Below are positions 1 to 14,863 of a stretch of 64,000 bases of DNA, in pieces (position 1 is the first letter of the stretch; each line of letters opens with the position of its first letter). A program made the position numbers and the translations under genes. The stretch is from Kutzneria buriramensis (GTDB lineage: Bacteria; Actinomycetota; Actinomycetes; Mycobacteriales; Pseudonocardiaceae): the NCBI RefSeq assembly GCF_003387475.1, contig NZ_QUNO01000013.1, forward strand, positions 62,001 to 126,000, written 5' to 3'. The notes below the pieces were generated by a model, which worked only from the letters and a program-made list of their open reading frames with translations, did no database searches and was not told the DNA's origin.

Positions 1-2260
1 CGACCCGCTGCACGGCCGACCACACGGTGGTCTCCGTCGGCCCGTAGACGTTCCACACCGGCACGCCGTCGGCGGTGAGCCGGTCGGCGAGCTCGCGGGG
101 GAACGCCTCGCCGCCGCAGAGCACGTGGCTCATGCCGTACGGGCGCCAGCCGGCGTCGAGCAGCATCCGCCACATCGCCGGCGGCCCCTGGGCGGCCAGC
201 CCCGGCTCGGACTCGATGAGCGAGCGGAGCTCCGTGCCGTCGGAGACCTGCTCGCGGGCGGCCAGCAGCACCGAGCCGCCGCGGATCAGCGGCAGGAACA
301 CCTCGTTGACGTGGATGTCGAAGCTGATCGAGGTGGTGGCCAGGTGCACCATGTCCTCGTCGGCGTCGAGCACCTCGCCCAGCGACTCCAGCAGGTTGAT
401 CACGGCCCGGTGGCGCACCTGCACGCCCTTGGGCAGACCCGTGGAACCGGAGGTGTAGATCGTGTACGCGATGTCGTCGCCGGACACCTCGACCGGCGCG
501 GCGGCGCCGTCGTGCTCGGCCGCCGCCTCCACGGACAGCGCCTGCGGCTTCAGCTCGGCGGCGACGGCGGCGGACGCCTCGTCGTACAGCAGCACCGCCG
601 ACTCGCTGTGCTCGGCGATGTACCGCAGCCGGTCGATCGGGTACTCCGGGTCGAGCGGCACGTAGTTCGCGCCGATCCGCAGCACGCCCAGCAGAGCCGG
701 CAGCAGCAGGCGGTTCCGGTTCATACACACGCCGACCGGGTCGCCGCGCTTCACGCCCGCCGCGGCCAGGTAGCCGCCGATGCGGCCGGCGAGGTCGTGC
801 AGCTCGTCGTAGTCGAGCTCGCCGTCGACCGCGCGCACCGCCAGCTCCGAGCCGGTCTCGATGCGCTGGTACAGGCCGGCCGGACCGTCCAGCGCCAGCT
901 TGGGACCGGCGGCGTGCGCGGCCAGGGCGTCGAGGTCCTCGTCGGCCAGCGCCGAGGTCGCCACCACCGAGGACTCCGGGTCGGTGGCGATCCGCTCCAG
1001 CACGGCCAGGTAGCCGCGGCTGATCCGGTCCACGTCGGCCGGGTCGAAGCGCCCGGCGTCGTAGCGGATCTGGAGCCGCAGCGAGGAGCCGTCCGGGGTC
1101 ATCACGAAGCCGGAGGTGATCGGGAAGTTGGTGTGCTCGTAGTAGGCGCCGATGTCGAAGGACAGGTCGTCCTGGCTGGACAGGCCCTCGTAGCTGCGGA
1201 ACCGCCGGAAGTCGAAGACGATGTCGAACGGGTTCCAGCCGGTGTGCTCGACCATCGCCGCCAGCGGGTACCGGCGGTGCGGCAGGATCGCCGTCTCCTT
1301 GGCGAACACCGAGGCGACGAACCCGCTCCAGGAGTCGGCCAGTTCCAGGCGGAACGGGTAGGTGCCGATGAACAGGCCCTTGACCTGCTCGGCGTCGCTG
1401 GTCTCGGGGCGGCCGTTGCCGATCACGCCGGTGATCACGTCGTGCCGGCCGAGCAGCGCCGCCGACACGCGCAGGTGCGCCGCCAGCAGCACGGTCCGCA
1501 CGGGGACGCGCAGCCGCTCGGCCAGCTCGGTGACGCCGACGACCGTCTTGTCGGGCGCGTCGTGCCAGCTCACCTCGACGGTGCCGATGGCGTCCGCGCG
1601 CTTGGTCGGGGTCGGCAGCAGCGCGGGCTCGGCGCCGGCCAGCTCGCCCTGCCAGAACTCCTCGGCGTCCTCGTCGTCCAGCGCGTCCAGCTCCAGGGCG
1701 ACGAAGTCGCGGAACCGGGTGCGCGGCGTGGCGAACTGCGGGTCCCGGCCCTGGCGAGCCGCCGCGTAGCCGGCGAAGAGCTCGGCGACGGCCGAGTGCA
1801 GGCTCCAGCCGTCCATGATCGCGTGGTGGAAGCTCCACCAGAAGTGGAACTCGTTCTCGCCGACCAGGTGCACGACGAACCGGAACAGCGGGGCGCTGCT
1901 GAGGTCGAACGCGTTGCCGACCTCCGTCCGCCGCCAGCGTTCCAGCGTCCCGTCGAGGTCCTGGTGGCCGCGCAGGTCGATGACCTCGAACGGGACCTCG
2001 GCCTCGGCGTGCACGAGTTGCAGCGGCTCGCTGAACTTGGTCAGCTCGAAGGAGGTTCGTAGCGTCTCGTGCGCGGCGACCAGGCCGTGCAGCGCGTGGC
2101 GGAACGCGTCCTCGTCCCACGGGCCGTGCACCCGCAGCGAGTAGATGTCGTGGTAGTAGGACGCGTCGCCGGCCAGCTCGGCGTGGTAGATCATGCCCGC
2201 CTGGAGTCGGGAGAGCGGGTAGGCGTCGGTGACCCCGCGCCGGGTGGTGGTACTCGTCAT
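1..2260 (-). CDS. NRPS, C-A (partial, 3' part beyond the left edge)
   Basis: Last visible gene of the minus-strand NRPS operon; about 753 residues are in the window and the reading frame is still open at base 1. The start is the ATG at 2260, 12 nt after the stop of the upstream NRPS and preceded by GAGGGGAA. A condensation domain fills residues 1-430, with an intact HHAIMDG motif near residue 145. An adenylation domain follows, with TIYTSGSTG near 603 and NVYGPTETT close to the edge. Aligning the specificity positions by eye to GrsA gives D-I-N-Q-L-G-V-V-W-(K). This shares most positions with the glycine signature (DILQLGLIWK), but N replaces L at position 239, so glycine or a small amino acid is only a guess. 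The carrier protein and any thioesterase should lie further left. It acts in the cytoplasm, downstream of the neighbouring bimodular NRPS. Confidence 0.93.
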   Translation of the reverse strand, partial: MTSTTTRRGVTDAYPLSRLQAGMIYHAELAGDASYYHDIYSLRVHGPWDEDAFRHALHGLVAAHETLRTSFELTKFSEPLQLVHAEAEVPFEVIDLRGHQDLDGTLERWRRTEVGNAFDLSSAPLFRFVVHLVGENEFHFWWSFHHAIMDGWSLHSAVAELFAGYAAARQGRDPQFATPRTRFRDFVALELDALDDEDAEEFWQGELAGAEPALLPTPTKRADAIGTVEVSWHDAPDKTVVGVTELAERLRVPVRTVLLAAHLRVSAALLGRHDVITGVIGNGRPETSDAEQVKGLFIGTYPFRLELADSWSGFVASVFAKETAILPHRRYPLAAMVEHTGWNPFDIVFDFRRFRSYEGLSSQDDLSFDIGAYYEHTNFPITSGFVMTPDGSSLRLQIRYDAGRFDPADVDRISRGYLAVLERIATDPESSVVATSALADEDLDALAAHAAGPKLALDGPAGLYQRIETGSELAVRAVDGELDYDELHDLAGRIGGYLAAAGVKRGDPVGVCMNRNRLLLPALLGVLRIGANYVPLDPEYPIDRLRYIAEHSESAVLLYDEASAAVAAELKPQALSVEAAAEHDGAAAPVEVSGDDIAYTIYTSGSTGLPKGVQVRHRAVINLLESLGEVLDADEDMVHLATTSISFDIHVNEVFLPLIRGGSVLLAAREQVSDGTELRSLIESEPGLAAQGPPAMWRMLLDAGWRPYGMSHVLCGGEAFPRELADRLTADGVPVWNVYGPTETTVWSAVQRV

Positions 2261-2272
2261 TCCGGGTTCCCC

Positions 2273-5200
2273 TCAGAGCCGGTCGAGCAGGGCCAGGTCG
2301 GCCGCGCTGAGCATGGCGAAGTCGTTGCGCGGCCTGGCATCGGCCGCTTCCTGTCGGAGTGCCGACGCCGCCAGCTCGCCCAGCGTGCGGGCGGCGAAGA
2401 CGGCGTCGAGCGCGAGCTTCCAGCCTCGTTCGGCGGCGACGCCGACGACCCGGACCGCGCTGAGCGAGTCCCCGCCCAGCGCGAAGAAGTTGTCGTCCAG
2501 GCCGACCGGGTCGGTCGCCTTGAGCACGTCCGACCACACCTGCGCGACCGCCCGCTCCGACTCGGTGCCGGGTTCGCGATAGGTCGAGGTTCGCGGGCGC
2601 AGGCCGGCCGGGTCGGGCAGCGCGCGACGGTCCACCTTGCCGGTCGTGCCGAGCGGGAACTCCTCCAGCACGACGACAAGAGCCGGGCACATGTAGTCCG
2701 GCAGCACCAGCCGCAGTCGGTCGATCAGCGCATCACCGTCCACATCGGACCGTGACGTGACGTAGCCGATGAGCTCCTTGCCGCCGCCGGCGCCCTCGTT
2801 CACGACGACGACCGCGTCCGCGACCTCCGGCTGGGCCACCAGCCGCGCCTCGATCTCGCCGAGCTCGATCCGCACGCCGCGGATCTTGACCTGGAAGTCG
2901 GTGCGCCCCAGGTATTCCAGCGCCCCGTCGGCCCGCCGGCGGACCAGGTCGCCGGTGCGGTAGAGCCGGCCGCGGCCGAACGGGTCGGGCACGAACCGGT
3001 CGGCGGTCAGGTCGGGCCGGCCGACGTAGCCGTGGGCCAGGCCGATGCCGCCGATGTGCAGCTCGCCGACGCCGCCGGTGGGCACCTGGCGCATGGCGCG
3101 GTCCAAGACGTGCAGCTGGATGTTGTCGATGGGCCAGCCGATCGGCACCACCGGGCCGTCGCCGGGTCGGCAGCTGTAGCGGGAGACGTCCACCGCGGCC
3201 TCGGTCGGCCCGTACAGGTTCTCCAGCCGCGGCCCGACGCCCATGACCTCGTAGAAACGGTCGCGGGTGCCGGCCTCCAGCGCCTCGCCGCTGCACACCA
3301 CCAGCCGCACGGTGTCGGCGACCGCCGCCGCGCCGGGCTGTTCCAGCAGCGCGGCCAGCATCGGCGGCACGAAGTGCAGGACCGTGACGCCCTCGCGGCG
3401 GATCTCGTCGATCAGGTAACCGGGGTCGCGGTGGCCGCCGGGCTTGGCCATCACGAGCTTCGCACCGGCCAGCAGCGGCAGGAAGAACTCCCACACCGAC
3501 ACGTCGAAGGTGTACGGGGTCTTCTGCAGCACCACGTCCGAGCCGTCGAGCCGGTACGCGTCCTGCATCCACCGCAGCCGGTTCACGATCGCCTCGTGTC
3601 CGACCACCACGCCCTTCGGCGCGCCGGTGGAGCCGGAGGTGAAGATGCAGTACGCCGCCTCGCCCTTCGGCACCGAGATGTCCAGCGGCGCAACGGGTTC
3701 CGCCGCCAGGTCGATGTCGTCGGCGGTCAATGTGACCTGGACGCCGGCCGTGGCGGTGATCATCGCCAGCCGCTCGACCGGCGCGGCGGTGTCCAGCGGC
3801 AGGTACGCCGCGCCGGCCGCCAGCACGCCGAGCAGCGCGACCACCAGCTCCGCCGACCGCTCCATCTGCACCGCGACCAGCTCGCCGGTCTGCACGCCGG
3901 CCTCACGCAGCCGCCGGCCGTGAACGTCGGCCAGCTCCAGCAGCCGCCGATACGTCAGCGTCGTGTCGCCGAAGGCGACCGCCGGCGCGTCCGGGTGCTC
4001 CGCGGCCGTGCGGCGGATCCACGTCAGCAGCGTGTCGTCGCTGGTCGGGACCATCGGGCCGGCGGCGGCCGCCAGCTCCTGCGCCTGCTCCCACGGCGGG
4101 GCCGTGTCGAACCGGCCGTCGAGGTTCAGCAGCAGGTACTCGATGTGCCGGAGCAGGCTCTCCGCGGTGGCCCGGTCGAACAGGTCGGTGTTGTACTCCA
4201 GGGTGAGGTGGCCGTCGAGCAGCGCGATCAGGCTCAGGTCGGTCTTGGCCGTGGGCCGCACGTCGGCGATCTCGGTGACCTCGACGCCCGGCAGCCGCAG
4301 CGTCGCCGGCTCGGCCTGCTGCATCACCAGCATCGCCTGGAACACCGGCGGGAAGCTGACCGTGCGCGGCACGCCCAGCTCACCGAGCAGCCTCTCGAAC
4401 GGCACGTCCGCGTCGGTCAGCGCGCGCTGCGCCTCGGCCGCCGTGACGGTGATCAGGTCCTCGACCAGGCCGCTGGCCGGCAGCGCGATCCGCAGCGGCA
4501 CGGAGTTGATGAAGCAGCCGATCAGGTCCTGGTGCTCGGGCTCCGGCCGGTTGGCCACGGCCGCGCCGAGCACGATCTCGGTGTCGGCGCCCCGGGCCGC
4601 GAGCGCGGCCGCGTAGGCGGCGGCGATCAGCGCGAACGGGGTCACCGCACGTCGTCTCGCCGCCTCCCGCAGGCCCGCCGGCAGGTCGAGGGTCACCCGG
4701 TCCCCGCGGAAGGTCTGTCGGCTGCCCCGCGGCCGGTCGGTGGGCAGGCCGTAGCGTTCGGGCGCGCCTTGCAGGTGCTCGGCGACGCCGGCCAGGTTGG
4801 ACGGCAGCTCCCGCTGCCGGGTTGCGAAGTCGGCGTAGTTCGCCGCCGGCGGCAGCTCAGTGCCTTGGTACAGCGCCGAAAGCTCGTTCTGGAGCACCGA
4901 CAGCGACCAGCCGTCGGCAGCGACGTGGTGCACGATCAGCACGAGGGCGAAGTCGTCGGCGCCGAGTTCGACCAGCGTCGCGCGCAGGCACTGGCCGGCG
5001 CGCAGGTCGAGGGGCCGGGTGAGCTCGCGCTGCACGAAGTCGGGCAGCGCCTCCGGGCCGTCCAGTGCCGCGGTCCGGAAGTCGAAGACCTCGCTCGCCG
5101 GGTGCGGCTCGGCGAGTAGGCCGTCCACGGTGGGCTGGAATCCCGTGCGCAGCGGAGCGTGCCGCTCGACGACCTTGACCACCGCCGATTCGAGGCGGCT

Positions 5201-8200
5201 CCGGTCGAGTGCACCGGTCAGCCGGAAGCACCAGGGGATGTTGTAGACGCCCGGTTCGGCGGCGGTGAGCTCCTCCAGGAAGAACATGCGTTCCTGGCCG
5301 AGACCCGCCTGGTAGGGCTCGTCCTTTTGGACGGCTGTGGCGGCCACCGCCGGGGCCTGCTCGGTGAGCCAGGCCGCCAGCGCCGTGGGCGTCGACCGTT
5401 GCAGCACGGCCGTCGCCGGCACCCGGACGCCGAAGCGCCGGCGCAGCAGGGCGGAGGCACGCATTGCCAGCAGCGAGTGGCCGCCGAGCTCGACGAACCC
5501 GTCGTCGGCGCCGACCTCGTCCAGGCCGAGGACCTCGCGGAAGACCGCCACGACGGTGTGTTCGGCCGGCGTCCGGGGCTCGGTGGTGACGGCGCGGGTC
5601 CGCACCGGCGGGGCCGGCAGCGACCGCTTGTCCACCTTTCCGTTGGACAGCAGCGGAAGCCGTTCCAGCTCCACCAGCTGTCCCGGCACGAAGGCCGGCG
5701 GCAGCGTGGCGGCGACGTGCCGGAGGACCGCCGGTGGCGACAGCGTCACGCCCGGCTTCGGCACGACGTAGGCGACGAGACCGTGCCCGTCCGGGGCCTT
5801 CACCACGACCGCCTGCTCGACGTCCGGGTGGCCGCGCAGCGCGGCGGTCACCTCGGCTGGCTGCACCCGCACGCCGTGCACCTTCACCTCGTCGTCGGCG
5901 CGGCCGAGGATCTCCAGCAGGCCGTCCGGTCGGCGGCGGCCGAGGTCGCCGCTGTGGTAGAGCAGGTCGTCGCCGAACGGGTTGCGGCGGAAGGCGTTCC
6001 CGCTCAGATAGCCCAGCGATCGGTGCGGCGTCCGGATGACGATCTCGCCGGGCTCCCCCACGCCGGCCGGCGTGCCGTCCGGGCCGAGGATCGCCACCTG
6101 GGTCTCCGGCTGCGTCCGGCCGATGGGCTGGACACCCGGGGAGGGTGTCGCCGGCACGTCGAACCAGCACTTGGCCAGGGTCGTCTCGGTGGGTCCGTAG
6201 AGGTTGACCACCCGGGCCCGGGGGCTGACGTTGGCGCGCCAGCGGTCGACGGCCTTGTCCGTCAGGGGCTCGCCCGCGAACATCGCGGCGCGCAGGGCCG
6301 GGAGTCTCGTCGCGGTGGCCGGGTCGGACAGCAGCTCCGACAGGCTCGGGGTGATGTGCAGCAGGGTGATGGCCTCGCGGTCCAGCCAGGCCAGGGTGCT
6401 CACCGGGTCGTCCAGGTCGGCCGGCCGCGGCACGACCAGCGTCGCGCCGGACACCAGGGGCAGGAACAGGTCCCGCAGCACCACGTCGAAGCCGAGGTTG
6501 GTCCGCCAGCCCAGCCGGTCGCCGGGCTCCGCGTCGAGGAGTCCGCGCTCCCAGGCCAGGAAGTGCCCCAGGCCGCCGTGCCGGCCGAGCACACCCTTCG
6601 GCACGCCCGTGCTGCCCGAGGTGAAGAAGATGTACGCGGGATCGTCCTGCCCGATGGGAACATCCACTTCGGACTCACCGAACGGCGGGTCGGTGATCTC
6701 CAGCGCCGGTCTGGCCGCCGCGCGGATGGCCGCCAGCCGGGCGTCCGGCAGGTCGGACTGCAACAGGAGCAGCACGCCGCCGGCGCGTAGCACGCCGAGC
6801 GCGGCCACCACGACGTCGCGGTCGTAGGTCCCGGGCACCGCAACGACATCGCCGGGGTCGAGGCCGCGTTCCAGCAGCCCGGCGGCGCAGCGGTCGGCGA
6901 GGGTGACGAGGTCCCGATAGGTCCACTCGCCCTCGGGGGCGTCGATGGCGATCTCTTCGGGCCAGTTCGACGCCGCCGCCCACACCTGGTCCACAACGGA
7001 CAGTTGCGGGCTCGCGATCAGCTCCCCGGCAAGCATTTCCGCCGTGTCGAAGGACCGGTCCATCGGCAGCGAACGCACGGACCGGTCCGGGTCGTCCAGC
7101 GCCGCCGCCAGCAGCCCGGTCATCGACGCCGCGAGCGAGGCGACGTCCGCCTCCGTGAGGGCGGCCGTGCGGTACAGGAACTCCAGCCGCAGACCGTCGT
7201 CCTCGGGCCAGCCGTAGAGGCACAGGTCGGCCCGCGATCGCACCGGCACCTGCTCCCAGCTCAGCCTGACCGTCGTGCAGCCGGCCAGCGTCAGCTCGGG
7301 GCGTGCGTCGGCGAACACGTTGAGCATCAGGTTCGTGCGCGGCTCCGCGCCGGCCTCCGCCCACTTGGCGCGCAAGGCCTCCGCCGGCACGTCGTGCGTC
7401 TCGTACGCGTCCAGGCTCGCGCCGCGAACGGTGTCGATCAGCTCCGCGAAGCTCTTGTCCAGGGTGGTTTCGACCGTGATGTAGAGGCTGTTCAGGCAGG
7501 GCCCGATCACGTTGCCGGCCCAGGACTGCGCACGGTTCGCGTACGGCATCAGGACGCTGCACGACTCCTGGCCGCTCAACCGGGCCGTCGTCGCGAAGAA
7601 CGCCGTCAGCAGCACCATGACCTCGGACGCGCCGTGCTGGCGACCCAGCCGACGGATCCGGTCCATCGCCTCGCCGTCGAGGTGCGCGTAGTGGCGCACG
7701 CCCTCGGTGGCATCCGCCGGCACCTTGCCATCGACCGTGCTCGGCAACGCCACCGGCTGCGGCACCGGCCGCCGCACGGCGATGCCGGCGATGCGGTCGT
7801 CCTGGCCCTGGAACCGGTCACGCTGGTATTTGGCGAAGCGGTCGAAGGGCTCCGGCGCGTCGGGCAGCTCGGTGCCGATGGTGACGTGGCGGTAGGCGTG
7901 GTCGAGCTCGGCGAAGAACGACGCCTCGGAGCCGCCGTCGAACACCAGGTGGCTCAACACCAGCAGCACCAGGGATTCCATGCCGAGGTCCCAGACGTGC
8001 GCCCGCACCAAGGGGGTGCCGGCCGGGAACGGCCGCAACGCCTCGTCGCGCAGCTCGGCATAGGCCCGCTGCTCGCCGGTCCGCCGGAAATGCACCGGCA
8101 GCTCGGTGTGGACCTGTCGTGACACCAACGAGTTCGTCTCGTCGTCCCAGCGCGGCTCGGTCAACAGCACCGGATTGCGCGTGGCGACCAGGTTCAGCGC

Positions 8201-8338
8201 CGCCTCGAACGCCTCGACGTCGAACTCGCCCTGCACGCGCCACGCCATCGGCAGGTTGTTCACGGCCGCGCCGGCGCCGACCTGCTCCAGCAGCCAGAGG
8301 CCTTCCTGCGCGTAGGAGGCCGGTGTGCTCTCGGACAT
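2273..8338 (-). CDS. Bimodular NRPS, C-A-PCP-C-A(Ser)-PCP
   Basis: A 2021-residue synthetase. The start is the ATG at 8338, only 2 nt after the stop of the upstream gene and behind a GGGGGGAG ribosome site; longer in-frame starts run back through that gene and are unlikely. Domains in order: C1 (about 1-430, motif SHLVFDG near 130, catalytic second His kept), A1 (about 440-930, FFTSGSTG near 569), PCP1 (ELGGHSLL near 953), C2 (canonical HHVAADG near 1136), A2 (IFTSGSTG near 1564), PCP2 (ALGGDSLS near 1953). There is no epimerase, methyltransferase or thioesterase domain. The A2 specificity positions read DVWHVSLVDK, a serine-type code. A1 reads roughly DVRHMALLAK, with FDVVLRD where FDxSVWE is usual; I do not recognise its substrate. 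Both A domains keep the A10 lysine (NGKVDKR, TGKVDRR). Confidence 0.95.
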   Translation of the reverse strand: MSESTPASYAQEGLWLLEQVGAGAAVNNLPMAWRVQGEFDVEAFEAALNLVATRNPVLLTEPRWDDETNSLVSRQVHTELPVHFRRTGEQRAYAELRDEALRPFPAGTPLVRAHVWDLGMESLVLLVLSHLVFDGGSEASFFAELDHAYRHVTIGTELPDAPEPFDRFAKYQRDRFQGQDDRIAGIAVRRPVPQPVALPSTVDGKVPADATEGVRHYAHLDGEAMDRIRRLGRQHGASEVMVLLTAFFATTARLSGQESCSVLMPYANRAQSWAGNVIGPCLNSLYITVETTLDKSFAELIDTVRGASLDAYETHDVPAEALRAKWAEAGAEPRTNLMLNVFADARPELTLAGCTTVRLSWEQVPVRSRADLCLYGWPEDDGLRLEFLYRTAALTEADVASLAASMTGLLAAALDDPDRSVRSLPMDRSFDTAEMLAGELIASPQLSVVDQVWAAASNWPEEIAIDAPEGEWTYRDLVTLADRCAAGLLERGLDPGDVVAVPGTYDRDVVVAALGVLRAGGVLLLLQSDLPDARLAAIRAAARPALEITDPPFGESEVDVPIGQDDPAYIFFTSGSTGVPKGVLGRHGGLGHFLAWERGLLDAEPGDRLGWRTNLGFDVVLRDLFLPLVSGATLVVPRPADLDDPVSTLAWLDREAITLLHITPSLSELLSDPATATRLPALRAAMFAGEPLTDKAVDRWRANVSPRARVVNLYGPTETTLAKCWFDVPATPSPGVQPIGRTQPETQVAILGPDGTPAGVGEPGEIVIRTPHRSLGYLSGNAFRRNPFGDDLLYHSGDLGRRRPDGLLEILGRADDEVKVHGVRVQPAEVTAALRGHPDVEQAVVVKAPDGHGLVAYVVPKPGVTLSPPAVLRHVAATLPPAFVPGQLVELERLPLLSNGKVDKRSLPAPPVRTRAVTTEPRTPAEHTVVAVFREVLGLDEVGADDGFVELGGHSLLAMRASALLRRRFGVRVPATAVLQRSTPTALAAWLTEQAPAVAATAVQKDEPYQAGLGQERMFFLEELTAAEPGVYNIPWCFRLTGALDRSRLESAVVKVVERHAPLRTGFQPTVDGLLAEPHPASEVFDFRTAALDGPEALPDFVQRELTRPLDLRAGQCLRATLVELGADDFALVLIVHHVAADGWSLSVLQNELSALYQGTELPPAANYADFATRQRELPSNLAGVAEHLQGAPERYGLPTDRPRGSRQTFRGDRVTLDLPAGLREAARRRAVTPFALIAAAYAAALAARGADTEIVLGAAVANRPEPEHQDLIGCFINSVPLRIALPASGLVEDLITVTAAEAQRALTDADVPFERLLGELGVPRTVSFPPVFQAMLVMQQAEPATLRLPGVEVTEIADVRPTAKTDLSLIALLDGHLTLEYNTDLFDRATAESLLRHIEYLLLNLDGRFDTAPPWEQAQELAAAAGPMVPTSDDTLLTWIRRTAAEHPDAPAVAFGDTTLTYRRLLELADVHGRRLREAGVQTGELVAVQMERSAELVVALLGVLAAGAAYLPLDTAAPVERLAMITATAGVQVTLTADDIDLAAEPVAPLDISVPKGEAAYCIFTSGSTGAPKGVVVGHEAIVNRLRWMQDAYRLDGSDVVLQKTPYTFDVSVWEFFLPLLAGAKLVMAKPGGHRDPGYLIDEIRREGVTVLHFVPPMLAALLEQPGAAAVADTVRLVVCSGEALEAGTRDRFYEVMGVGPRLENLYGPTEAAVDVSRYSCRPGDGPVVPIGWPIDNIQLHVLDRAMRQVPTGGVGELHIGGIGLAHGYVGRPDLTADRFVPDPFGRGRLYRTGDLVRRRADGALEYLGRTDFQVKIRGVRIELGEIEARLVAQPEVADAVVVVNEGAGGGKELIGYVTSRSDVDGDALIDRLRLVLPDYMCPALVVVLEEFPLGTTGKVDRRALPDPAGLRPRTSTYREPGTESERAVAQVWSDVLKATDPVGLDDNFFALGGDSLSAVRVVGVAAERGWKLALDAVFAARTLGELAASALRQEAADARPRNDFAMLSAADLALLDRL

Positions 8339-8340
8339 CG

Positions 8341-10434
8341 TCACTCCCCCCTTCCCGGACGCACCCATACCGGCCTGGTCATCAGCGAGATCGTCCCCTC
8401 GGCGACGACCAGACCCCGGACGTACTCCTGATGCTTGCGAGCCTCTTGCGGCACGTCGATCCGCACCGCCAGCTCGCCCCACCCCTGCGCGTCGAGGTCG
8501 ACGAACTTGGGCTGCGGGAACGCCATGCCGTTCTTGGCGGCGTTGGCCATGAACACCCCGGCCGCCACCTTCGTCGCGTCGCCGGCCACCTTGAACCGCA
8601 GCCGGATCGACGGCGATTCGCCGACGTGCCACAGCTCGGCGGTCTCGACCACCATGTCCGACACCGGCGACCGGCTGTCCGCGTCGCGGATCATGCCGCA
8701 CCGGGGGCAGACCCGCGCGTCGCGGCCGATCCGCTCGATGATCGGGTGCGTCGCCCCCTGCTGCACCAGAAGCCGTTCGCAGTAGGGGCATTCCTCGTCG
8801 GTCAGCACGGGCGCGTGCAGTTCGAGCGTCTCGCCCCAGATGTCGTTGTAGTGCTGGAAACTCTGCACGCCGCGCTCGAAGACCGCCTCGGCCAGCGTCA
8901 GTTCGGCCCGCTCCACGCCGGTCGCGATGGCACTGATCCGGCGGCGGATCCGCGCCACGTCACCGGTCAGCGCGGCCCCGTGCAGCGACGCCGCCACCGA
9001 CGCCACCTGATCGCGGACGTTGACGAGCATGTTGCCCTGCCGCGAGTACTTCAACCCGGTGAACGGCACGTCCTCCAGGCTGGTCATCGCGCGGCCCATG
9101 GCCTGCAACGACGCCTTGAGCGCGGGCACCTTCTCCTCGTCGAGGTGCTCCGTGACGGCACCCTTCAGCACCGCCGCCCCGCGCGGCGACACCTGGATCA
9201 CGTGCGCGCTGGAGCCGCGTGCCTCTTCGGCCGCGAGCGCGACCGCCGCGGCCCGGATGCCGCCGCTGTCCGCGCGGTCTTTACCTTCCACGACAAGGTA
9301 GTCCTGCCACGGGTTGTCGTCGCCGGCCTCGGCGACGGTCAGCCAGGGCAGCCCGAGCAGCGAGTAGTACGGCAGGTCCACCCGCTCGTAGCGGAGGTGA
9401 TCGTTGATCAGCGTCGCCGCCTCGCCGAGGCTGCGGCCGGTGGCGCACGCGGTGTGGAAGACGTCGTTGAGCTTGAGCAGGCCGTTGATCACCTGCCCGG
9501 TCGACAGGTACGCCGCCGCGATGCCGCGCACGAACCCGTGCGGCAGCAGGTAGTCCGACGGGTAGAGGCCTTCGTTGACCCGCATGCCCATGCACGAGTT
9601 GGTGAACACCGCGTCGGCCACGATCCGCCCCGACTTGATCACGTCCTCGGTGGACACTTCCGGCCGGTAGCAGTGCCCCGTGAAGGCACAGACCGGCGCG
9701 TGCGAGGCGGCGGCCGAGTGCACGTCGATCTGGATCGGGCCGATCGGGCAGATCACCGTGTCGTTGAAGTGCACGACGTCGTCGCGGCCGTGGGCGATCA
9801 CCGACACCGCGGCGGTGTAGGAGTCCAGCAGCAGCGGCCGGATCCGCTCAGCGCGCGCCTCCTCCTGGAGCACCCAGGTGCCGGTGCCGTAGCGCTTGGG
9901 CGTCTTCTGCACCGCCGGCCAGATCCGGACGTGCTCCTCGGCCGGCCGGATCCGGTGCGGCATCGCCAATCCCTTGGCGATCAGCCAGCTCAGGTCGTCC
10001 AGGTCCTCGCCGACGACCAGGCCCAGGTGCCCACCCTCGCCGCGCGACCGGTGCTCCCACAGGCTGTCGTGCACGCGGATCAGCGACCGCTCGTCGATCT
10101 CCTCGGCGAGTCCGATGTAGACGATGTAGCGGGCGTCGCCGCTGGCCGGGCCGATGTCCCCGGGATCGGTCAGCTCGACGCCGCTGCCGCCGACACAGGT
10201 GGCCAGCGCGGCGCCGACCTCGGCCGCCTTGGACCCGGTGCGCCAGGCCACGAGCACGTCGCCGTGCTGGTCGACCGGGCGGCTCATGGCGGCGGTGCTG
10301 ATGTCGGCGACGGCCTCGTGCGGCTCGCCGGGGTCGCCCAGCACCGGGACCTCCGCGCCGGGCAGGTAGGTGCGCAGCGCGTCTAGGTAGTCGTCCAGGC
10401 CGGGCAGGAAACGGAACGGGGACAACGTGGTCAT
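8341..10434 (-). CDS. Caspase/gingipain-like (clan CD) protein with zinc ribbon in the NRPS operon
   Basis: A 697-residue protein, start ATG 10434 behind CCCGGAGAAA. It is not an NRPS domain and I know no characterised homologue. What is visible: a hydrophobic strand ending in AHGRDD (His near residue 212), a later strand AVFTNSCMGMR (Cys near 279), then a Gly/Ala-rich stretch with TGRSLGEA and a LLGLPWL segment. This order (strand-His-Gly, strand-Cys, 'slGea', 'LLGdP') is how C25/gingipain and CHAT-type caspase folds look, so I infer that fold. A second candidate His lies in FTGHCYRP. The C-terminal third has CPYC near 548 and CPRC near 577, a likely zinc ribbon, then a beta-rich tail. It ends 2 nt before the NRPS start, so the two are surely co-translated. 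Its role could be peptide release, a proteolytic step or a scaffold; a catalytically dead fold is possible. Confidence 0.7.
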   Translation of the reverse strand: MTTLSPFRFLPGLDDYLDALRTYLPGAEVPVLGDPGEPHEAVADISTAAMSRPVDQHGDVLVAWRTGSKAAEVGAALATCVGGSGVELTDPGDIGPASGDARYIVYIGLAEEIDERSLIRVHDSLWEHRSRGEGGHLGLVVGEDLDDLSWLIAKGLAMPHRIRPAEEHVRIWPAVQKTPKRYGTGTWVLQEEARAERIRPLLLDSYTAAVSVIAHGRDDVVHFNDTVICPIGPIQIDVHSAAASHAPVCAFTGHCYRPEVSTEDVIKSGRIVADAVFTNSCMGMRVNEGLYPSDYLLPHGFVRGIAAAYLSTGQVINGLLKLNDVFHTACATGRSLGEAATLINDHLRYERVDLPYYSLLGLPWLTVAEAGDDNPWQDYLVVEGKDRADSGGIRAAAVALAAEEARGSSAHVIQVSPRGAAVLKGAVTEHLDEEKVPALKASLQAMGRAMTSLEDVPFTGLKYSRQGNMLVNVRDQVASVAASLHGAALTGDVARIRRRISAIATGVERAELTLAEAVFERGVQSFQHYNDIWGETLELHAPVLTDEECPYCERLLVQQGATHPIIERIGRDARVCPRCGMIRDADSRSPVSDMVVETAELWHVGESPSIRLRFKVAGDATKVAAGVFMANAAKNGMAFPQPKFVDLDAQGWGELAVRIDVPQEARKHQEYVRGLVVAEGTISLMTRPVWVRPGRGE

Positions 10435-10451: not shown

Positions 10452-10616
10452 TAGGGGGTGTCCCGTGGATCGTGGTCGATGAGAGTCGGGATCGAGGTGG
10501 TTCCTGGCGGCGCTGCGAAAACGGCCTCATACCGGGCGTATTCGGACGTTTTCGCGGTGTCGTCAGGGGCCGCGTCGGCGCGGCTGTCGCGGTCGTGATT
10601 CACGGGACATCCCCTA
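10452..10616. mobile_element. MITE-like element, 165 bp, TA ends
   Basis: The stretch is bounded by TAGGGGGTGTCCCGTGGATC on the left and, inverted, TAGGGGATGTCCCGTGAATC on the right: 18 of 20 bases match. The TA at each end fits the target duplication used by IS630/Tc1-mariner transposases. There is no open reading frame inside, so it would move only in trans. An internal perfect 9-bp inverted repeat (GCGAAAACG ... CGTTTTCGC, about 10515-10556) adds a hairpin. On the minus strand the right end supplies the TAG stop of the MFS gene. Removing the element with one TA gives GCT TAA followed by 16 nt and the ATG at 10434, a normal operon junction. Confidence 0.72.
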
Positions 10617-11849
10617 AGCTGCGGCCGCGGCCGCGACTTCGGGGCGGTTGACCACCGCGGACGGCACGATCAGCAGGCTCAGCAGGCCGGGCGCGCCGGC
10701 GATCACGGCCATCAGCACGACCATGCCGCTGTACTGGCCGGCGGCCAGCAGCGGGCCGGCGATCACCGAGCCGACCGGCACCGCGCCGAGCATCAGCGTC
10801 CGCATCAGGGTCATGGTGCGGGCTCGCAGCTCCTCGGGCGTCCGCTTGTAGCGCACGGTCTGGGAGGACACGGTCAGCAGCGCGGCCGGCGCGCCGCAGA
10901 CGACCTGGCCGATCAGCACCAGCACCGGATTCGCGCCCAGCAGCAGAAGAAGCCCGCCGCCGGCGACGAGTTGCAGCGAGCCGATGCGGACCATCGGCCG
11001 CACCGCCGGCTTGATCGCGCCGGCGATCAGCGAGCCCAGCATCTCCGCCCCGGCCAGCACGCCCACCAGCAGGCCGAGCATGGTCGCGCCGCCGGCCAGC
11101 TTCTCGTGCGCCAACCACGGCTGGGTCACGATCAGCATGCCCATGGCCACGTTGAACGCGGTGAACGCCACCGTGATCACGACCATCACGCGGTCGCCGC
11201 GCAGGAACGCCAGCACCGGCCCCCAGGAGCCGCGCTTGGCGCCGCTGCCGGCGTCGGCCACCGGCCGCGGCAGCTTGGCCTTCATGCTCAGCACGAACAG
11301 CGCGAACGCCAGGTAGCTGGCGGCGTCGATGGCCAGCACACCCTGAACTCCCACAAGGGGAATCAGCGCGCCGCCGATCGCCGGGCCGATCAGGCCGGCC
11401 GCGCCGGTGGCGATCGCCTCCATGGCGATGGCCGTCGGCAGCTTGTCCTCCGGCACCAGTTCCGGCAGCACCGCGGGCACGATGCCGATCGGCAGGATCT
11501 TGAACAGGCCGTAGACGGCGGCCACCACGTAGGCGTGCCACAGCTGGAGGCTTCCGGTCAGCGCGAGGATCGGGATGGCCGCCATCGCGCCGCCGCGCAC
11601 GACACTGTCCAGCACCAGCAGGTTCCGGCGGGAGAAGCGGTCCACGAGCTTGCCGGCGAGCAGGCCGCCGACGATGATCGGCGCGGTGTAGCACACGCCC
11701 AGCACGGTCAGCGCCTCGGCGCCGCCCCGGGAAACTCCCAGCCAGGCCAACGCCGTCCAGCTGGCGCCGTCGCCGAGCAGGCTCACCACCGCGCCGATCC
11801 ACAGTTTGCGGTAGTCGGCGATTCGCAACACCGTCAGGTACGTCTTCAC
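10614..11849 (-). CDS. MFS exporter of the NRPS cluster
   Basis: A 411-residue membrane protein of the major facilitator superfamily, with about 12 hydrophobic segments and the inter-helix motif GKLVDRFSRRN near residue 70. The start is the GTG at 11849 (VKTYLTVLRIADYRKLW), behind AGGAGGG; a longer frame upstream crosses the divergent promoter and is rejected. MFS proteins of this type often export the peptide made by neighbouring synthetases, which is the likely job here. It is first in the minus-strand operon and is followed by the caspase-like gene after a MITE-like insertion. Its TAG stop lies inside the insertion's inverted repeat; without the insertion the stop would be TAA at the same codon, so the protein is probably not shortened. 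Confidence 0.88.
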   Translation of the reverse strand: MKTYLTVLRIADYRKLWIGAVVSLLGDGASWTALAWLGVSRGGAEALTVLGVCYTAPIIVGGLLAGKLVDRFSRRNLLVLDSVVRGGAMAAIPILALTGSLQLWHAYVVAAVYGLFKILPIGIVPAVLPELVPEDKLPTAIAMEAIATGAAGLIGPAIGGALIPLVGVQGVLAIDAASYLAFALFVLSMKAKLPRPVADAGSGAKRGSWGPVLAFLRGDRVMVVITVAFTAFNVAMGMLIVTQPWLAHEKLAGGATMLGLLVGVLAGAEMLGSLIAGAIKPAVRPMVRIGSLQLVAGGGLLLLLGANPVLVLIGQVVCGAPAALLTVSSQTVRYKRTPEELRARTMTLMRTLMLGAVPVGSVIAGPLLAAGQYSGMVVLMAVIAGAPGLLSLLIVPSAVVNRPEVAAAAAA

Positions 11850-12044: not shown

Positions 12045-13556
12045 GTGCACGCGACGACCCTGGTCGAGGTGTTCGACCGCAGCGTCAGAGCCAATCCGGA
12101 CCGTGTCGCGCTCGTCTACGAGGACACGGAACACACCTACGGCCGCTTGGACGAATGGTCGAACGGCATCGCGCAGTGGTTGCGGGACAACGGGGTTCGC
12201 CCCGGCGACCGGGTCGCGCTGCGACTGGCGCCATGCGCGGACGTGGTCGCCGCCATCCTCGGCATCGTGAAGTGCGGTGCGGCCTATGTGCCGCTGGACA
12301 TCCGAAACCCGCGCTCCCGCAGCGAGTTCGTGCTGGCCGACGCGGGTGCGGTGGCGTTCGTCGGCGATCTGTCTGAGACAGACACGAATCTTCCGCACCT
12401 GGACACCGAAACCCTTGCGGCGCTGGCCTCACGGCCGGCGGCCCCGGTCGACGCGGAGGTGTCCACTGAGGACGTCGCGTACGTGATCTACACGTCCGGC
12501 ACGACCGGCACCCCCAAGGGTGTCCCGATCCGGCACGGCAATGTGGTTGCGTTGCTGGACGCGACGGCGCCGCTGTTCGAGTTCGACCGCGACGACCGCT
12601 GGCTGCTGTTCCACTCAGTGGCGTTCGACTTCTCCGTCTGGGAGATCTGGGGCGCCCTGTCCACCGGCGCCGGCCTGGTGGTGCTGCCGCACTGGACGGC
12701 CCGCGACCCCGCCGCGGTGGTGGACGTGCTCGTGGCGAACGAGGTGACGGTGCTCAACCAGACGCCGACCGCCTTCGCTTCACTGGCCGCCACCGCGCAG
12801 CGCCGGGACATCACGCTGTCGGGACTGCGCTACGTCGTCTTCGGCGGCGAGAAGCTGCTGCCCAGGACGCTGTCGGACTGGGTGGCGCGCCACGGCGTCA
12901 AGAATCCGCGGCTGGTCAACATGTACGGCATCACCGAGACCACTGTGCACACGACGTTCCACGAGCTCACCGCCGACGACCTCGACGACACGGGCTCGCC
13001 GATCGGGCGGCCGCTGCCGGGCTTCGAGGCCCTCGTCGTCGATGACGACGGCACGCCGGTCGCGGCGGGCGAGGTCGGCGAGTTGTGGCTGACCGGACCG
13101 CAGGTGGCCGGCCGCTACCTCGACCGTCCCGAGCTGACCGCCGAGCGGTTCGGCCCGGCCGTCCCCGGCGGCCCGGCCTGCTACCGCTCCGGCGACCTCG
13201 TCGCCCAACGGCCGGACGGCACGCTGGAGTACCACGGCCGCAAGGACCTTCAGGTGAAGCTGCGCGGTCATCGCATCGAACTCGGCGACATCGAGGAGGC
13301 GGTCCGCTCGCACGAAGGCGTCACGGAGGCGGTGGCCTTCGTGCACGACTTCGGCGACGGCGACCTCCGGCTGGTGTGCGCATACCTGCCGACGACCGAC
13401 CCGGTCAAGCACCGGGAGCTGCGTGCGCACGTCAAGGCGCTGCTGCCCTCGTACATGCATCCCTCGGCGTACCAGGAGATCGACGAGCTGCCGAGGACCG
13501 TCAACGGAAAGCTCGACCGGGCGAAGATCGCCCGGTCGCGGGAACAGGGAGCGTGA
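12045..13556 (+). CDS. Stand-alone adenylation domain, threonine-type
   Basis: A 503-residue free adenylation enzyme that should form an aminoacyl-AMP and pass it to a carrier protein. The start is GTG 12045 (VHATTLVEVFDRS), about 9 nt after GGGAGAAAGG. Motifs: VIYTSGTTGTPKG near residue 148, DFSVWEIWGAL, NMYGITETT near 304, YRSGDL near 378 and NGKLDRAK at the C-terminus. The specificity positions read D-F-W-N-V-G-M-V-H-K; the classical threonine signature is DFWNIGMVHK, so threonine is a strong prediction. It is followed after 3 nt by a lone carrier protein. Such free A/PCP pairs commonly load an amino acid for modification (for example halogenation or oxidation) or for transfer in trans onto an NRPS that lacks its own module. 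No modifying enzyme is visible beside it, so simple trans loading is the plainer reading. Confidence 0.92.
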   Translation: MHATTLVEVFDRSVRANPDRVALVYEDTEHTYGRLDEWSNGIAQWLRDNGVRPGDRVALRLAPCADVVAAILGIVKCGAAYVPLDIRNPRSRSEFVLADAGAVAFVGDLSETDTNLPHLDTETLAALASRPAAPVDAEVSTEDVAYVIYTSGTTGTPKGVPIRHGNVVALLDATAPLFEFDRDDRWLLFHSVAFDFSVWEIWGALSTGAGLVVLPHWTARDPAAVVDVLVANEVTVLNQTPTAFASLAATAQRRDITLSGLRYVVFGGEKLLPRTLSDWVARHGVKNPRLVNMYGITETTVHTTFHELTADDLDDTGSPIGRPLPGFEALVVDDDGTPVAAGEVGELWLTGPQVAGRYLDRPELTAERFGPAVPGGPACYRSGDLVAQRPDGTLEYHGRKDLQVKLRGHRIELGDIEEAVRSHEGVTEAVAFVHDFGDGDLRLVCAYLPTTDPVKHRELRAHVKALLPSYMHPSAYQEIDELPRTVNGKLDRAKIARSREQGA

Positions 13557-13559
13557 CCG

Positions 13560-13796
13560 GTGATCGAGACCGAACTGCGGGACAGCACGCACGCGTGGGT
13601 GGTGGAGCTGCTCGACGAGTCGGACGTGTCGTTGGAGGACAACTTCCTCGACCTCGGCGGGCACTCCATGCTCGCGCTGCGGCTCAACGAGCGGATCGCC
13701 GACCGGTACGGGGCGGGCCTCAGCCTCCGCCTGCTGTTCGAGCGCAGCCTCGGCGACGCGGTCGCCGAGCTGGCCGCCCGACTTCAGGCGGCGTGA
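13560..13796 (+). CDS. Free peptidyl carrier protein
   Basis: A 78-residue acyl/peptidyl carrier protein, GTG start 3 nt after the adenylation gene stop. The phosphopantetheine site is DLGGHSML, Ser near residue 38. The size is that of a single carrier domain. It should hold the threonyl thioester made by the gene upstream and present it to a condensation domain of the NRPS, most simply in trans. Its stop codon lies inside a terminator hairpin shared with the convergent LuxR gene. Confidence 0.93.
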   Translation: MIETELRDSTHAWVVELLDESDVSLEDNFLDLGGHSMLALRLNERIADRYGAGLSLRLLFERSLGDAVAELAARLQAA

Positions 13797-13816
13797 GGCC
13801 CACCCCGGCCTCACGC
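13791..13816. terminator. Bidirectional hairpin spanning both stop codons
   Basis: GCGTGAGGCC, loop CACCCC, then GGCCTCACGC: a perfect 10-bp stem. It contains the TGA of the carrier protein (plus) and the TGA of the LuxR regulator (minus). Confidence 0.7.
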
Positions 13817-14863
13817 GTCGACCTGCGCGTCCAGCAGCCTGGACAGCGCGGCCGACCGAGCCCCCAGCTGGAACCGCGTCTCCACGCCCAGGCGCTCGCT
13901 GAGCAGGCTCAGGTAGCGGCGCAGCGTCCGGGTGGAGATGCTCAGCTTGCGCGCGATCGCCTCGTCGGTCCGGCCCTCGGCCAGGCCGGCGAGGATCGTG
14001 CGCTCGATGTCCTCGATGAGCTCGTCCTCGCCCGTGCCGTCGCGCACCGGCAGCGCGGTCTCCCAGCTGTGCCAGAACGTCCGCTCGACCAGCTCGATCA
14101 CCATCGGGTCGCGGACCAGCACGCCGCCCGGCCCGACCGCCACGAACACCGAGGACCGGTCCAGCACCACCGCCCGGTACGGCACGGCCGCGGCCGTGCG
14201 GACCTGGGCCCCGCCCTCGGCGAGCCGGGCCAGTTGGTCGGCTGCCCGCGGTCTTCGCCGGATCGCGTGCGGCCACAGCACCCGGTAGTCGACCCCGCGC
14301 CCGATCAGCGCCTCGTCCAGCTCGGGGTCGTCGGTGAGCACGTCGAGCGTGTCGGCCGAGGTGCTCATGCTGAGCACCAGGAACTCCGTGGCCGCGGCCA
14401 GCTCGGTGAGCCGCTGCCGGGCGGAGTCGGCGTCCGCGAACGTCTCCCGGCCGGCCGGCAACAGATCTGTCACCGGCACGTCCCGCGCCGCGGCGCGGTA
14501 GTTGGCCACCAGCATGCCCAGCGTGCGGGTCAGGCCGTCGGTGGCGTCGGTGACCCGGTCCCGCAGCGTGCGCATCGGCCGCAGCATGCTCGCGGCCGCG
14601 ATCTCCGGCGGCACGGCCTCCCACCGCACCGCCTCGCCGTCGGTGCTCCGGCGCAGCAGGTTCCAGCGCTCCAGCGCGAGGACCTGCTCGCCGACCGTCG
14701 CCGCGTCCAGTCCGGTCGTCGCGGCGCAGTCACGCACGCTCGCCGGCCCGGCGACGAAACACCGATAGACGACCGCCGCCGTGTCGTCCAGTGTGAGATC
14801 CGAATCGTGCGATTCGGACGTCCCCAGAGTGTAGTCGATCACGTCTCCCCCAAATCGAGACAT
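13811..14863 (-). CDS. LuxR-type transcriptional regulator (likely cluster regulator)
   Basis: About 350 residues. The N-terminal part resembles TrmB-like winged-helix regulators (a helix-turn-helix followed by a helical linker), the middle a phospholipase-D/TrmB sensor-like region, and the last 65 residues a LuxR-type helix-turn-helix (GRTDEAIARKLSISTRTLRRYLS). This layout is common for pathway regulators beside actinomycete NRPS clusters. The start is not certain: ATG 14863 (MSRFGGDVID) is preferred; a GTG at codon VIDYTL has GGGGGAG too close, and an ATG at 14902 would add 13 residues. It is convergent with the carrier protein gene and divergent from the hydrolase, and so is well placed to control both halves of the cluster. 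Confidence 0.85.
   Translation of the reverse strand: MSRFGGDVIDYTLGTSESHDSDLTLDDTAAVVYRCFVAGPASVRDCAATTGLDAATVGEQVLALERWNLLRRSTDGEAVRWEAVPPEIAAASMLRPMRTLRDRVTDATDGLTRTLGMLVANYRAAARDVPVTDLLPAGRETFADADSARQRLTELAAATEFLVLSMSTSADTLDVLTDDPELDEALIGRGVDYRVLWPHAIRRRPRAADQLARLAEGGAQVRTAAAVPYRAVVLDRSSVFVAVGPGGVLVRDPMVIELVERTFWHSWETALPVRDGTGEDELIEDIERTILAGLAEGRTDEAIARKLSISTRTLRRYLSLLSERLGVETRFQLGARSAALSRLLDAQVDA

Follow-up and report, generated by a model that had tools for sequence, protein, structure and literature searches.

In Kutzneria buriramensis, a gene encoding a 697-residue protein of no annotated family is embedded in a non-ribosomal peptide synthetase (NRPS) operon of the window, i.e., the whole stretch of 64,000 nts of DNA that was analysed (Table 1). 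As the preliminary description of this DNA had stated, only 2 nts separate its stop codon from the ATG, at position 8338, of a bimodular NRPS, in which two Condensation, two PP-binding and AMP-binding domains are read as C-A-T-C-A-T. The ATG at 10434 was taken as the start of the 697-residue form, and it was preferred over an alternative in-frame ATG at 10530, which gives 729 residues, because similarity to the homologues sets in near residue 3 of the 697-residue form. The same description had noted that no thioesterase (TE) is visible, which holds within the window; however, the next NRPS gene, followed into the assembly beyond the left edge of the window, is closed by a TE domain (E 7e-30, residues 1045-1281 of 1290). 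Release of the peptide by the 697-residue protein is therefore needless. The stand-alone adenylation domain and carrier protein located between 12045 and 13796 on the plus strand could constitute a trans-acting starter unit for the NRPS. Beside the cluster, the minus-strand gene at 13811-14842 encodes a protein with a C-terminal LuxR-type HTH, which is likely a regulator. No aminoacyl-tRNA synthetase (aaRS) gene was seen among the examined genes of the window cluster.

Table 1. Features of the NRPS operon and of the 697-residue protein, with positions in the window
Feature	Position	Strand	Basis
Next NRPS gene, 5′ part, C-A-T-TE, extending beyond the left edge of the window	1..2260	minus	assembly sequence L062:2392-6261
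Bimodular NRPS, C-A-T-C-A-T	2273..8338	minus	domain search and 2-nt spacing
BlsK-like protein of probable caspase/CHAT-like fold, 697 aa	8341..10434 including stop (coding 8344-10434)	minus	homology and profile comparison
C-terminal beta domain, approximately residues 591-692, with Foldseek beta-sandwich matches (e.g., CARDB)	8359..8664	minus	predicted model
Zinc-ribbon-like CxxC (549/552) and CxxC (576/579)	8698..8790	minus	29/29; Pfam ribbon scores below cut-off
Probable caspase/CHAT-like core, approximately residues 60-365	9340..10257	minus	hhalign against CHAT and models
C281, invariant 29/29, clan CD nucleophile position, on the CHAT Cys	9592..9594	minus	alignment and profile comparison
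C255, invariant 29/29, candidate Fe-S ligand	9670..9672	minus	alignment
C249, invariant 29/29, candidate Fe-S ligand	9688..9690	minus	alignment
C229, invariant 29/29, candidate Fe-S ligand	9748..9750	minus	alignment
H215-G216, clan CD His-Gly position, His in 24/29 homologues	9787..9792	minus	alignment
MFS exporter, directly upstream of the 697-aa gene, same orientation	10614..11849	minus	domain search
Stand-alone adenylation domain	12045..13556	plus	domain search
Stand-alone carrier protein (PCP)	13560..13796	plus	domain search

No Pfam or NCBIfam model reached its cut-off for the 697-residue protein, and a PDB sequence search gave nothing better than E 0.03 with the single protein (lipases) and only weak matches with a six-row profile (best E 0.13), the CcbD structures 7YN2 and 7YN3 being absent. 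About 30 distant homologues were nevertheless found in actinobacteria. The single protein returned zero matches in the genome contigs, compared with 5 loci for a three-row profile. Of 390 genomes from the same bacterial family, 16 were positive in a profile search at E 0.001, as were 9 of 394 genomes of the class at E 1e-5; both figures include the genome from which the window comes. In the 394 class genomes, a 25-row profile recovered exactly the 9 that the three-row profile had given. Six other genomes of the genus were searched, without a homologue in any of them. Further homologues are present on records of a plasmid collection; a tblastn search of plasmids with the L057 homologue gave no match. 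The 29-row full-length alignment used below omits L056 (split over two frames), L061 (a near copy of L060), L043 (a short form), L010 (a duplicate of L031), the Bombilactobacillus pieces, Embleya H3 and the weak G428 match. The set of neighbouring proteins comprises 164 entries (L009 and L010 lie outside it and two proteins above 1500 aa were skipped), of which 138 were examined; the 26 left over are eight single entries (long proteins of NRPS or tRNA synthetase type, partial ones or very short ones) and, from each of L031, L058 and L061, six proteins.

Eight cysteines are common to all 29 full-length members: C229, C249, C255 and C281 in the core, and C549, C552, C576 and C579, which form a CxxC-x23-CxxC arrangement on the C-terminal side, where the preliminary description had seen a CxxC...CxxC zinc ribbon. 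This ribbon does not reach a curated cut-off (12.1 against 22.9 bits for Zn_ribbon_Com and 11.2 against 27 for Zn_ribbon_3). The further motifs that had been described are also present, with a shift in numbering, the His-Gly pair being H215-G216 rather than residue 212 and the cysteine C281 rather than 279. The GRSLGEA segment includes G333, kept in 25 of 27 members, while the LLGLPWL segment includes G361, kept in 27/27 and, with the larger set, in 29/29. Since C281 and the four ribbon cysteines are invariant and the histidine is found in 24 of the 29 members, the H215, C281 and ribbon motifs reflect more than chance. Conservation of the putative catalytic pair is complete for Cys and not universal for His: residue 215 is Leu in L003, L009 and L032, Phe in L034 and Asn in L117. 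Four of these five members belong to a single six-row branch (support 100/100) together with L035 and L036, which both retain His, while L117 sits apart, within the clade of BlsK-position genes discussed below.

The order of these motifs had led to the proposal of a clan CD fold, which is probably right. In hhalign, the family core (residues 61-365, 27 members) matched 14 CHAT domains drawn from related genomes with a probability of 91.3% and a score of 52.6, compared with 10.1-20.1 for 27 controls (26 profiles of unrelated neighbour families plus a reversed CHAT alignment), and the probability was 93.9% with 29 members. The alignment extends over 107 and 104 columns, respectively, of some 300 in the core and takes in C281 but not H215. 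C14 peptidases matched weakly (7.9%), yet with both the HG and the Cys in register; as a reference, the true pair formed by CHAT and C14 gave 53.9%. For the 697-residue protein itself, no match to Pfam CHAT, C14 or C25 was listed even at E up to 10. The N-terminal part of the Streptoalloteichus homologue (389 aa) was modelled with AlphaFold2 from an alignment of six sequences (pLDDT 69.7, pTM 0.76). The top Foldseek match of this model in the PDB was 7x8a_D, a CHAT domain protein (E 0.017, prob 0.80); separase came at rank 18 (E 0.39), and no match reached E 0.001. The model of the full-length window protein (pLDDT 58.7, pTM 0.46) had no CHAT protein among the 50 matches listed, in which beta-sandwich proteins were reached through its C-terminal domain only. 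Because the CHAT profile match stands far above the 27 controls, a caspase-like core is likely, short of proof.

The family shares with the CHAT domain proteases (PF12770) the HG...Cys order and the predicted alpha/beta core, along with the hhalign and Foldseek matches above. It differs from them in the absence of a Pfam CHAT match, in a histidine that is not universal, in its C-terminal ribbon and beta domain, and in the three additional cysteines lying between His and Cys. Within the His-to-Cys stretch of the 14 CHAT domains there is no common Cys column, 11 of them being devoid of Cys and 3 containing one. C229, C249 and C255, without a shared CHAT counterpart, are candidate Fe-S ligands, a number that would suit a three-ligand [3Fe-4S] site.

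A non-actinobacterial homologue is found, as a gene in pieces, on a Bombilactobacillus folatiphilus plasmid (L115:6101-7005). This fragmentary homologue has Cys at none of the positions of C229, C249 and C255 and retains the Cys at position 281, which hints that the three would act as a unit separate from C281, a decaying gene being a weak witness. The pattern bears on another view of the core. As all four core cysteines are invariant while His varies, C281 might be a ligand rather than the nucleophile, in a catalytically idle scaffold whose core would bind a metal or Fe-S cluster via C229, C249, C255 and C281 and aid another enzyme. Such a scaffold is highly improbable, given that C281 falls on the CHAT nucleophile, that the Bombilactobacillus fragment keeps this Cys and none of the other three, and that BlsK, to which the family is probably related, is reported as an enzyme.

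A 334-aa short homologue without ribbon and beta domain is encoded upstream of YcaO and TfuA genes (L043:9216-10220, G214). Judging from this short form, the family's minimal unit may consist of the core and its four cysteines.

Searching with the Streptoalloteichus-type homologue led to plasmid-borne clusters. In Kitasatospora sp. NBC_00039, the gene order is cytosylglucuronate synthase, blsE, blsF, blsG, a DegT aminotransferase, an ATP-dependent ligase, MFS, the homologue, a methyltransferase and a nucleoside deoxyribosyltransferase, where blsE, blsF and blsG are named in the record itself. We read this order as bls D to M, in which the homologue takes the K position, the letters beyond E, F and G being assigned from the order. 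The homologue is presumed to be BlsK by its place in the gene order. Another homologue, in Streptomyces sp. NBC_00467, shares its cluster with blsE, blsF and genes for beta-methylarginine, and its immediate neighbour is a short AMP-binding gene. The L118 homologue is labelled 'hypothetical protein' in its record and had no NCBIfam match at E 0.01.

The window protein forms a clade with L033 and L007 (100/100). Profile-profile comparison of this clade with the BlsK-position clade gave 99.4% over 593 columns (E 2.7e-21), covering the core, the ribbon and the beta domain, and the window ORF is also recovered, at 1.6e-16, by a profile built from the BlsK-position clade alone. The window protein and the gene at the blsK position are connected by homology along the full length, by the identical eight invariant cysteines and by an adjacent MFS gene. 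However, in the 29-row alignment the window protein shares no more than 17-19% identity with members of the BlsK-position clade (a smaller alignment gives up to 23%), the fork uniting the two clades is weakly supported (50/49), and the window gene belongs to an NRPS operon, whereas BlsK comes from a peptidyl nucleoside cluster. At this identity and with such weak branching between the clades the function may have drifted, and given the NRPS setting the acceptor must differ from that of BlsK. From these comparisons, the 697-residue protein is best classed as a divergent member of the BlsK family, in an NRPS setting and with a newly proposed caspase-like core. Among the matches listed in the open-licence literature, no CHAT or caspase fold was found for BlsK or for an NRPS partner.

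In the study of BlsK, a leucyl group was reportedly moved from leucyl-tRNA onto demethylblasticidin S. According to a title cited in PMC10691278, BlsK is a [3Fe-4S], tRNA-dependent aminoacyltransferase. Leucylation is described as a proposed self-resistance in blasticidin S biosynthesis and as a methylation requirement (PMC5572114), and the leucyl group is described as being taken off by PepN (PMC4664946). Because its relatives include the gene at the blsK position of blasticidin S-type clusters, the 697-residue protein probably joins rather than cuts. We consider it rather probable that it is a BlsK-family aminoacyltransferase built on a caspase/CHAT-like core, adding an amino acid at an amine that belongs either to the NRPS product or to an intermediate. 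The donor would be an activated amino acid, most likely an aminoacyl-tRNA by homology to BlsK. C281 would take up the aminoacyl group as a thioester, which would then be resolved by the acceptor amine, with the assistance of H215 where present, so that an amide is formed on the NRPS peptide or on an intermediate. An iron-sulfur cluster, as reported for BlsK, would have C229, C249 and C255 as its ligands. The MFS protein encoded next to the gene may then export the product in a masked form of lower toxicity.

The preliminary description had instead suggested that the protein releases or cuts the peptide, a role that is probably wrong. A cysteine peptidase of clan CD type, which would trim the peptide product, set it free or take off a protecting group, would agree with the HG and Cys in clan CD order and with the CHAT profile match, and other peptidases (M28 and S66) are found in some homologue neighbourhoods. 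This is nonetheless improbable in view of the absence of His in 5 of the 29 members, the three extra invariant cysteines without a shared CHAT counterpart, the TE already present in the next NRPS gene and the homologue at the BlsK position, which points to aminoacyl transfer.

The surroundings of the homologues seem enriched in genes of amino acid activation. Within about 10 kb, genes for A or C domains, LAL-type ATP-grasp enzymes or aaRSs occur at 24 of the 29 loci compared with 9 of 27 control stretches, and taken separately the counts are 11 against 2 for C domains, 14 against 2 for LAL-type ATP-grasp and 6 against 0 for four aaRS profiles (29 loci and 27 controls each), all of these being indications only because the profiles were built partly from the case loci, which include the near duplicates L003/L009, L060/L061 and L031/G052. 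NRPS genes are truly associated with the homologues, though not exclusively: with the same reservation, A or C domains lie within about 10 kb at 18/29 loci against 8/27 controls. None of the tested activating enzymes is found at 5 of the 29 loci. Checked with Pfam, aaRS genes lie within approximately 10 kb at 7 of the 29 loci (L007, L032, L033, L034, L035, L038 and L041), a count to be read with the control stretches screened with the four aaRS profiles only. One of them, a LysRS gene, belongs to L007, one of the two nearest relatives of the window protein. The IleRS-type gene in the vicinity of L032 may have a housekeeping role. L033, L034, L035 and L038 have cluster genes in common.

A second possibility for the donor arises from these neighbourhoods: the same Cys-dependent aminoacyltransferase could be charged from an aminoacyl-carrier-protein thioester, supplied by the A domain and PCP at 12045-13796 or by a T domain of the NRPS. 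Stand-alone A and PCP genes adjoin the operon, and A-T genes lie just before the homologue, with overlapping ends, in L003, L009 and L032 (L009 by similarity only), adjoin it in L039 and are two genes away in L038, the domains having been checked with Pfam in L003, L032, L038 and L039. A short AMP-binding gene is also found directly beside the homologue in L116 and L055. The loss of His with retention of Cys in members beside A-T genes would fit a thioester exchange, in which there is no amine leaving group to protonate. However, BlsK is reported to be tRNA-dependent, and no AMP-binding gene is listed across the 25.9-kb Kitasatospora stretch around the BlsK-position gene. A carrier-protein donor is accordingly regarded as rather unlikely, and the aminoacyl-tRNA as the preferred one.

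To our knowledge, no Fe-S cluster is present in CcbD/LmbD, the lincosamide enzymes with which the proposed reading shares a cysteine-protease-like, amide-forming activity. They are absent from the PDB sequence matches and from the 50 structural matches listed for either model, and CcbD has no detectable sequence relation to the 697-residue family, which also speaks against extending its donor to the latter. CcbD, as described in PMC12945683, is a cysteine-protease-like enzyme of lincosamide biosynthesis, dependent on a carrier protein, which forms an amide bond through a ping-pong route with a Cys-His-Glu triad, a precedent for the carrier-protein donor. A different comparison is offered by the window protein's NRPS setting. 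PEARLs (peptide aminoacyl-tRNA ligases) are tRNA-dependent enzymes of the lantibiotic-dehydratase type, whose fold is, as far as we know, unrelated to that of the 697-residue protein; the resemblance would lie in tRNA-dependent peptide bond formation alongside an NRPS. Peptide bond formation by PEARLs combined with NRPS is described in PMC11212132.

A bolder and more tentative proposal, possible but favoured with less than even confidence, is that of a caspase-fold family devoted to making amides rather than cleaving them, with an Fe-S cluster bound through three cysteines inserted between the catalytic His and Cys of a CHAT-like core, an aminoacyl-thioester on C281, a tRNA or carrier donor and, in the present operon, tRNA-derived amino acids coupled to an NRPS product. 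If true, the fold of caspases, separase and CHAT proteases would also serve as an aminoacyl ligase in antibiotic pathways, with an Fe-S site in the active region. It would also provide BlsK with a structural framework, give access to about 30 further loci at which a protein so far uncharacterised may be attaching an amino acid, and supply a case, open to testing, in which tRNA-dependent chemistry is coupled to an NRPS assembly line.

Several features recur around the homologues. An MFS gene is immediately beside the homologue at 8 of the 29 loci (the window, L004, L007, L031, L036, L038, L039 and L054), and directly adjoins it in L117 and L118 too. Short class II tRNA synthetase-like proteins are common to the clusters of L033, L034, L035 and L038, some of which also contain a P450 or an S66 (MccF-type) peptidase; these clusters are possibly tRNA-synthetase-inhibitor pathways. 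In L041:7255-11195 (G246), the homologue overlaps by 4 nts with an arginyl-tRNA synthetase gene and is preceded by a FemAB-like gene. Finally, in L042:9231-14368 (G185), the homologue is located near QueD-, QueE- and QueC-like genes of the 7-deazaguanine type, assigned by eye, with the radical SAM confirmed.
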